From the NCBI GenBank assembly GCA_026002995.1, contig BPGK01000001.1:1674001-1738000 (forward strand): a stretch of DNA of 64,000 nucleotides. Reading direction: 5' to 3'. The notes under the pieces are model-generated. The model worked only from the letters and a program-made list of their open reading frames with translations, was not told the DNA's origin and did no database searches. Source of the DNA: Gaiellaceae bacterium (GTDB lineage: Bacteria > Actinomycetota > Thermoleophilia > Gaiellales > Gaiellaceae). Numbering within the stretch: position 1 is the stretch's first letter; every line of letters begins with the position of its first letter. The position numbers and the translations under genes are program-made. This document shows positions 30,274 to 30,800 of the stretch, one piece after another.

Positions 30274-30334
30274 CGCAAATTGCGTCCGTGCCGTCGTTCG
30301 GGCTCTTGACGCCGGCCGACGCTCATCGTAGGGT
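30274..30334 (+). promoter_or_regulatory. Promoter 1 of the small RNA pair with upstream palindrome
   Basis: 11-bp palindrome CGCAAATTGCG (30274-30284), 21-bp gap, -35 TTGACG (30306-30311), 17-bp spacer, -10 TAGGGT (30329-30334). The layout is repeated with identical spacings at copy 2 although most intervening bases differ. Confidence 0.75.
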
Positions 30335-30341
30335 CGCCACT

Positions 30342-30451
30342 GCACCGAGCACGGAGCGTCCGAGGTTGATGGTTCTCCGAGCGGCAGTCGCTTCGGCGGA
30401 GGTCGGTCGGGAAGCCGGACGAAGGCGACACCGGCTCGGTGCATTTCTCTT
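30342..30451 (+). ncRNA. Candidate structured small RNA, copy 1
   Basis: About 110 nt. The predicted start lies 7-8 nt after the -10. The 5' end GCACCGAGC pairs with the 3' GCTCGGTGC (30434-30442), followed by a pyrimidine/T-rich tail, i.e. the ends close into a terminal stem and terminator. An internal hairpin TCTCCGAGCG...CGCTTCGG is evident. Copy 2 differs by three substitutions in 103 nt. It does not match 6S, SRP, tmRNA or RNase P RNA signatures I know. A short ATG frame inside is open but has no stop at the repeat end, so coding is unlikely. Confidence 0.65.
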
Positions 30452-30554
30452 ACCCCGACTCCGCAGCTCGACCCGCGCACCGGGTCGGCCGAGTCCGTGC
30501 CTCTACCTCCTCGTCACGGAAGCGAGCTCGGCGCGGTCGCCCGCGCGCTCTTCC

Positions 30555-30615
30555 CGCAATTTGCGCGAAACGCGTTCGCGATCCTCTTGACCGGAGCCTC
30601 TCCGCACCCTAGAGT
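30555..30615 (+). promoter_or_regulatory. Promoter 2 of the small RNA pair with upstream palindrome
   Basis: Palindrome CGCAATTTGCG (30555-30565), 21-bp gap, -35 TTGACC (30587-30592), 17-bp spacer, -10 TAGAGT (30610-30615). The palindrome centre is 63 bp before the predicted start, as in copy 1, the usual distance for a class I activator site. Confidence 0.75.
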
Positions 30616-30622
30616 CGCGACT

Positions 30623-30730
30623 GCACCGAGCAGGGAGCGCCCGAGGTTGATGGCTCTCCGAGCGGCAGTCGCTTCGGCGGAGGTCGGTCGGGAAGCCGGA
30701 CGAAGGCGACACCGGCTCGGTGCATTTTTG
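30623..30730 (+). ncRNA. Candidate structured small RNA, copy 2
   Basis: Paralogue of the RNA at 30342-30451, with the same closing stem GCACCGAGC/GCTCGGTGC (ending 30723) and a clearer terminator tail ATTTTTG. The substitutions relative to copy 1 lie in the 5' third and in the loop region; the 3' 75 nt are identical. It ends about 70 bp before the convergent ETF-QO stop codon. Confidence 0.65.
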
Positions 30731-30800
30731 TCCGTTGTCTCGCGCCCTCGTCTGGCGCGGGCGCGATGGCGAGTCAGCGCCCTACGTCCGAGTCAGGGCC

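Follow-up and report, generated by a model that had tools for sequence, protein, structure and literature searches.

The analysed window, a stretch of 64,000 nucleotides from a Gaiellaceae bacterium (assembly GCA_026002995.1, contig BPGK01000001.1, positions 1,674,001 to 1,738,000), contains two adjacent copies of what, as judged by comparative sequence analysis, is a new family of structured small RNAs that is present almost throughout the order Gaiellales and carries an unusually well-defined promoter signature. We consider it reasonably probable that each copy is an independent small RNA gene, transcribed under the control of a putative activator, and that the predicted product is a stable, presumably regulatory RNA bound by a protein partner through a conserved internal loop.

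Structure and distribution of the RNA

The two copies, each of about 103 nt (Table 1), differ at 3 of 104 positions (30352, 30359 and 30373 in the numbering of copy 1). Upstream of the RNA segments, 44 of the 92 bases are identical between the copies, the promoter elements included, and downstream 19 of the 81; with both flanks diverged, the palindrome, the promoter elements and their spacings are retained amid differing surroundings. The predicted folds have energies of -57.9 kcal/mol for copy 1 (z-score of -4.2 against shuffled sequences) and -61.1 kcal/mol for copy 2 (z-score of -4.1). An earlier note on this DNA had described two 103-nt segments with three base differences, diverged bases between conserved elements at conserved spacings, and RNA ends that pair with each other and run into a T-rich tail; direct reading of the sequence confirms all these features, and the closing stem doubles as the predicted terminator.

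Table 1. Features of the predicted RNA genes (positions in the window, except for the last row)
Feature	Position	Strand	Remarks
Copy 1 RNA, a rod closed by its paired ends, with T-rich tail (type A, UUCG loop)	30342..30451	+	predicted start G30342; model R1, 110.3 bits
RNA copy 2 (type A), T5 tail	30623..30733	+	predicted start G30623; model R1, 107.1 bits
Copy 1 palindrome CGCAAATTGCG, centre -63, proposed activator operator	30274..30284	.	fixed position across genera
Copy 1 promoter, TTGACG (30306-30311), 17 bp, TAGGGT (30329-30334)	30306..30334	+	read directly
Copy 1 closing/terminator stem, 5' arm GCACCGAGC	30342..30350	+	pairs with 30434-30442
Copy 1 internal loop, bulged strand A-G-GTT-GA-T, k-turn-like core	30363..30370	+	core in 104/105
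Copy 1 apical hairpin CGC-TTCG-GCG	30389..30398	+	loop counts; helix 5 covaries
Copy 1 internal loop, opposite strand GGACGA	30417..30422	+	core G in 103/105, A in 104/105
Copy 1 closing stem, 3' arm GCTCGGTGC (30434-30442), and T-rich tail (30444-30451)	30434..30451	+	predicted terminator
Copy 2 palindrome CGCAATTTGCG, centre -63	30555..30565	.	read directly; exact-site search of own genome
Copy 2 promoter, TTGACC (30587-30592), 17 bp, TAGAGT (30610-30615)	30587..30615	+	read directly
Copy 2 closing arms	30623-30631 and 30715-30723	+	T run 30725-30729
Mini-hairpin RNA, own genome	C1:861477-861537 (in L160)	-	relatives' loci L111, L114, L115

A DNA search detected similar segments in other genomes, and a covariance model (R1) was then built from 33 copies (alignment A1). 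The covariance search identified the RNA in 97 of the 103 genomes of the host family, including all 35 of good quality, and in 106 of the 129 genomes of the order Gaiellales (39 of the 43 of good quality). The genomes of the relatives contain one to six copies each, and the genome from which the window comes has four, namely the window pair and those at 656982 and 1501786. Outside the order, the covariance search of a sample of the class yielded no match, and a search of a phylum sample with a refined model matched only two genomes, both of the host family; these large searches employed strict filters, so that weak, distant members may be missed. One contig titled as a Burkholderiales MAG (L199, JAICUZ010000010.1) contains two copies of the RNA and is probably mislabelled or part of a mixed bin.

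Among 105 distinct copies, in an alignment that was fitted to the model and hence favours the structure, 95.6% of the cells are in standard pairs and 27 of the 30 pairs show two-sided changes. None of 500 shuffles reached these pairing values, and sliding the partners by 1 to 3 columns reduced the paired fraction to 24-37%. In the independent MAFFT alignment A1, RNAalifold predicts the same rod, with 14 of the 30 pairs compensated. The closing stem (columns 2-9 with 129-136 of alignment A3) shows two-sided changes at all pairs, and in family 2 it is rebuilt as GCGCCGCTCAGGG/CCGGAGCGGCG. The apical loop is a GNRA tetraloop in most copies, including those of type B, and UUCG in the type-A subfamily to which the window copies belong; this variation is an exchange of stable caps, not a seed. 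Such compensatory base-pair changes across homologues are the hallmark of a structured non-coding RNA family. A protein-coding interpretation was rejected because no reading frame stays open in all copies.

The presence of several copies per genome and the near identity of the window pair would suit a non-functional repeat, either MITE-like or a duplicated terminator. That explanation is already contradicted by the strong covariation, and it also fails to account for the invariant core of the internal loop, the promoter kept amid diverged surroundings and the retention of the RNA across the order, so we regard it as highly improbable.

Searches of Rfam 15 at gathering thresholds found nothing at the RNA in the whole window, in both copies with permissive filters or in 18 relatives, and we found no description of it in the open-access literature. 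The earlier note had proposed a duplicated and perhaps previously undescribed regulatory RNA, to which its author could assign no RNA family, had suggested the Rfam and covariance searches as checks and had named coding-type homologues or unpaired ends as observations that would speak against it. Both searches were run, and the absence of an Rfam match, the order-wide presence and the compensatory changes uphold the proposal; the homologues share no open frame, and the pairing of the ends is conserved.

Promoter architecture and the proposed operator

In both window copies, the palindrome CGCAA(A/T)TTGCG is followed, after 21 bp, by the -35 element, a 17-bp spacer and the -10 element, which places the palindrome about 63 bp before the predicted start, as the earlier note had stated. 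The genome-wide palindrome search that it had recommended revealed three exact sites in the 2.62-Mb genome, each located 68 bp ahead of an RNA copy. When up to two mismatches were allowed, the pattern of the palindrome, 21 bp, TTG and the -10 element gave 33 matches in 11 genomes of the genus, compared with a single match for the reversed control. No recognisable palindrome was found at copy 4 of the own genome or at the two family-4 copies examined.

Among the family-1 promoters, 87 have a recognisable palindrome; its centre falls between -62 and -65 in 85 of them, and TTG follows it after 20-23 bp in 84. In family 2, the centre is at -51 to -54, with 8-12 bp to the -35 element, that is, about one helical turn closer than in family 1. 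Furthermore, the palindrome is flanked on both sides by A/T shoulders in mirror-image positions, giving the extended motif AATnnnCGCAAWTTGCGnnnATT. Taken together, the helical-turn shift and the symmetric extension fit a dimeric DNA-binding activator that contacts the polymerase along a single helical face. As in class I activated promoters, the operator precedes the -35 element at a fixed spacing that is in phase with the helix. CRP-type class I promoters likewise have a single dyad-symmetric site phased to the -35 element, which here lies about 62-65 bp before the start; the operator sequence of CRP sites is unlike this palindrome. A CRP site at -61.5 is a known model of class I activation (PMC6301791). 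On these grounds, the RNA copies are probably activator-controlled, as the earlier note had proposed: the palindrome keeps its phase relative to the promoter from one genus to the next.

At two loci (L171:773-995 and L172:753-975), a single operator precedes a head-to-tail fusion of two RNA copies, the first of which has no T run. In many genera, DnaA-box-like repeats (TTGTCCACA, TGTGGAAA) precede the operator at distances of up to about 100 bp (L020, L021, L028, L045, L048, L052, L059, L068, L069 and L076). The possibility that these mark a replication origin was rejected, given that no dnaA gene was seen in the flanks that were read and that the repeats are absent at the window copies.

The internal loop and candidate partners

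The internal loop has the form (A/G)(G/C)UA-G-GWC-GA-A on the 5' side and GGA-C-GAA on the 3' side, with the core G and A residues conserved in 103-104 of the 105 copies. The bulge is mostly GTC, GTT or GAC and is followed by GA, with GA on the opposite strand, so that a 3-nt bulge precedes tandem G:A and A:G pairs, the standard layout of a k-turn (PMC8191799). We infer from the sequence that, in three dimensions, the loop would form such a turn adjoining a loop-E-like AGUA/GAA element. Ion-induced folding of k-turns is favoured by G at position 3n and impaired by a G:C pair at -1b:-1n (PMC8191799). The loop described here has both features, and because the G:C pair disfavours ion-induced folding, a protein may be needed for the kink. 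The orphan k-turn motifs drum, HOLDH and RAGATH-18 have the same 3-nt bulge, G:A and A:G pairs, 3b:3n = A:G and 4b:4n = G:U (PMC8191799 Table 1); compared with these at the level of the internal loop, the Gaiellales RNA differs in having G:C at -1b:-1n and no Rfam match. A search of the own genome revealed no L7Ae-family gene and hence no sign of the usual k-turn partner, and a protein of this family was rejected as the candidate.

Bacterial Y RNAs, the partners of Ro/TROVE proteins, are about 100 nt long, with paired ends and a conserved internal loop, and the Gaiellales RNA, for which Rfam gives no match, resembles them in all these respects. The TROVE (Ro60/Rsr) gene is found in 2 of the 129 genomes of the order and is absent from the own genome; this near absence makes identity with Y RNA unlikely.

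By analogy, the RNA could also be a relative of 6S RNA (RF00013) or the actinobacterial Ms1, that is, a DNA-mimicking rod that would bind RNA polymerase and damp transcription in stationary phase. These RNAs, too, are stand-alone rods with paired ends and an internal loop, central in the Gaiellales RNA, and the presence of the latter in multiple copies across the order is compatible with such a role. However, it is shorter (about 103 nt compared to roughly 150-300 nt), its multiplicity is itself a difference from 6S and Ms1, its conserved internal loop resembles packed purine pairs rather than an open bubble, no covariance match to 6S RNA was obtained at the RNA in the window copies or the 18 relatives, and a separate 6S-like candidate exists in the own genome. 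We therefore give this alternative a small probability. The separate candidate (C1:1585988-1586146, minus strand, L214) is itself weak, scoring 28.2 bits, below the family cut-off.

As in many bacterial sRNAs, a stand-alone gene with its own promoter, an operator-like site and a terminator could encode a trans-acting RNA that silences or activates mRNAs by base pairing. Apart from the internal loop, however, the RNA offers no conserved unpaired segment for contacts with mRNAs: its 5' end is sequestered in the closing stem, and its apical loop is a GNRA or UUCG tetraloop. We therefore judge a mechanism of this kind improbable. With its ends in the closing stem and a stable tetraloop cap, the RNA has no free seed and would most likely function as a stable RNP.

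Genomic contexts and proposed mechanism

The window copies are preceded by an exonuclease-like gene and followed by a FixC-like gene in convergent orientation; with no target gene downstream, they appear to be stand-alone. Of 107 copies, 39 are closely followed, on the same strand, by a small membrane-protein gene and are often flanked on the opposite side by uppP or a glycosidase-like gene; at those loci, a role in cis is conceivable. Given this arrangement and the aptamer-like structure, the RNA could be a leader or attenuator of the membrane-protein gene, with the closing stem as a regulated terminator and the window copies as stray duplicates. However, the start codon of the membrane-protein gene is usually preceded, at a distance of a few bases, by a separate -10-like box, so the RNA is better read as a neighbour than as a leader; the distance between the RNA and the gene varies from about 45 to 190 nt rather than being constant, as it would be in a leader or riboswitch ahead of a co-transcribed gene; no membrane-protein gene was detected next to the majority of the copies, among them the window pair; and tandem copies mostly carry an operator and a promoter each. 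We thus consider a cis-acting leader unlikely.

Under the favoured scenario of independent genes for a protein-bound RNA, a dimeric activator would bind the extended motif centred near -63 and assist RNA polymerase, in the class I manner, in initiating from a conventional -35/-10 promoter. The resulting RNA of about 103 nt would end at its own closing stem and U tail, with the ends locked by the terminator stem so that the molecule persists. The nearly invariant k-turn/loop-E-like internal loop would serve as the docking site for a protein, and the bound RNA would alter the activity or location of this partner when the activator signal is on.

Gaiellales are often detected and rarely cultured, and we found no RNA regulator of this order described in the open-access literature. 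A near-universal, multi-copy RNA with its own operator thus provides a concrete entry point into regulation in these bacteria: from the operator one would expect an activator with a regulon of its own, and from the invariant internal loop a protein partner. If that partner belongs to transcription or translation, the RNA would join the few bacterial RNAs known to act through protein binding.

In relatives, the same operator-promoter also precedes a gene for a Cys4 protein of 60-63 aa (TCDDCYFRREGLCALPGNVPCPTFR), located behind a PDZ-Lon-like protease gene that was identified by eye (L091, L094, L095, L096, L110, L112, L116, L117, L119 and L124). The Cys4 protein has no Pfam match and occurs class-wide, well beyond the range of the RNA; it was accordingly rejected as a dedicated partner and is at most co-regulated with the RNA. 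More speculatively, the RNA could be the founding member of a new class of bacterial regulatory RNP, in which an order-specific RNA combining a k-turn with loop-E would bind a core cellular machine or a dedicated protein, under one activator shared with the Cys4 protein and a mini-hairpin RNA, a possibility that we put forward only tentatively.

The mini-hairpin RNA (ACTGAACCGGCGGGCCTTCGGGTCAGTCGGTTCAGT), of about 36 nt and ending in a T run, is likewise preceded by the operator-promoter and is encoded downstream of recR. In the own genome, parts of the mini-hairpin recur further downstream.
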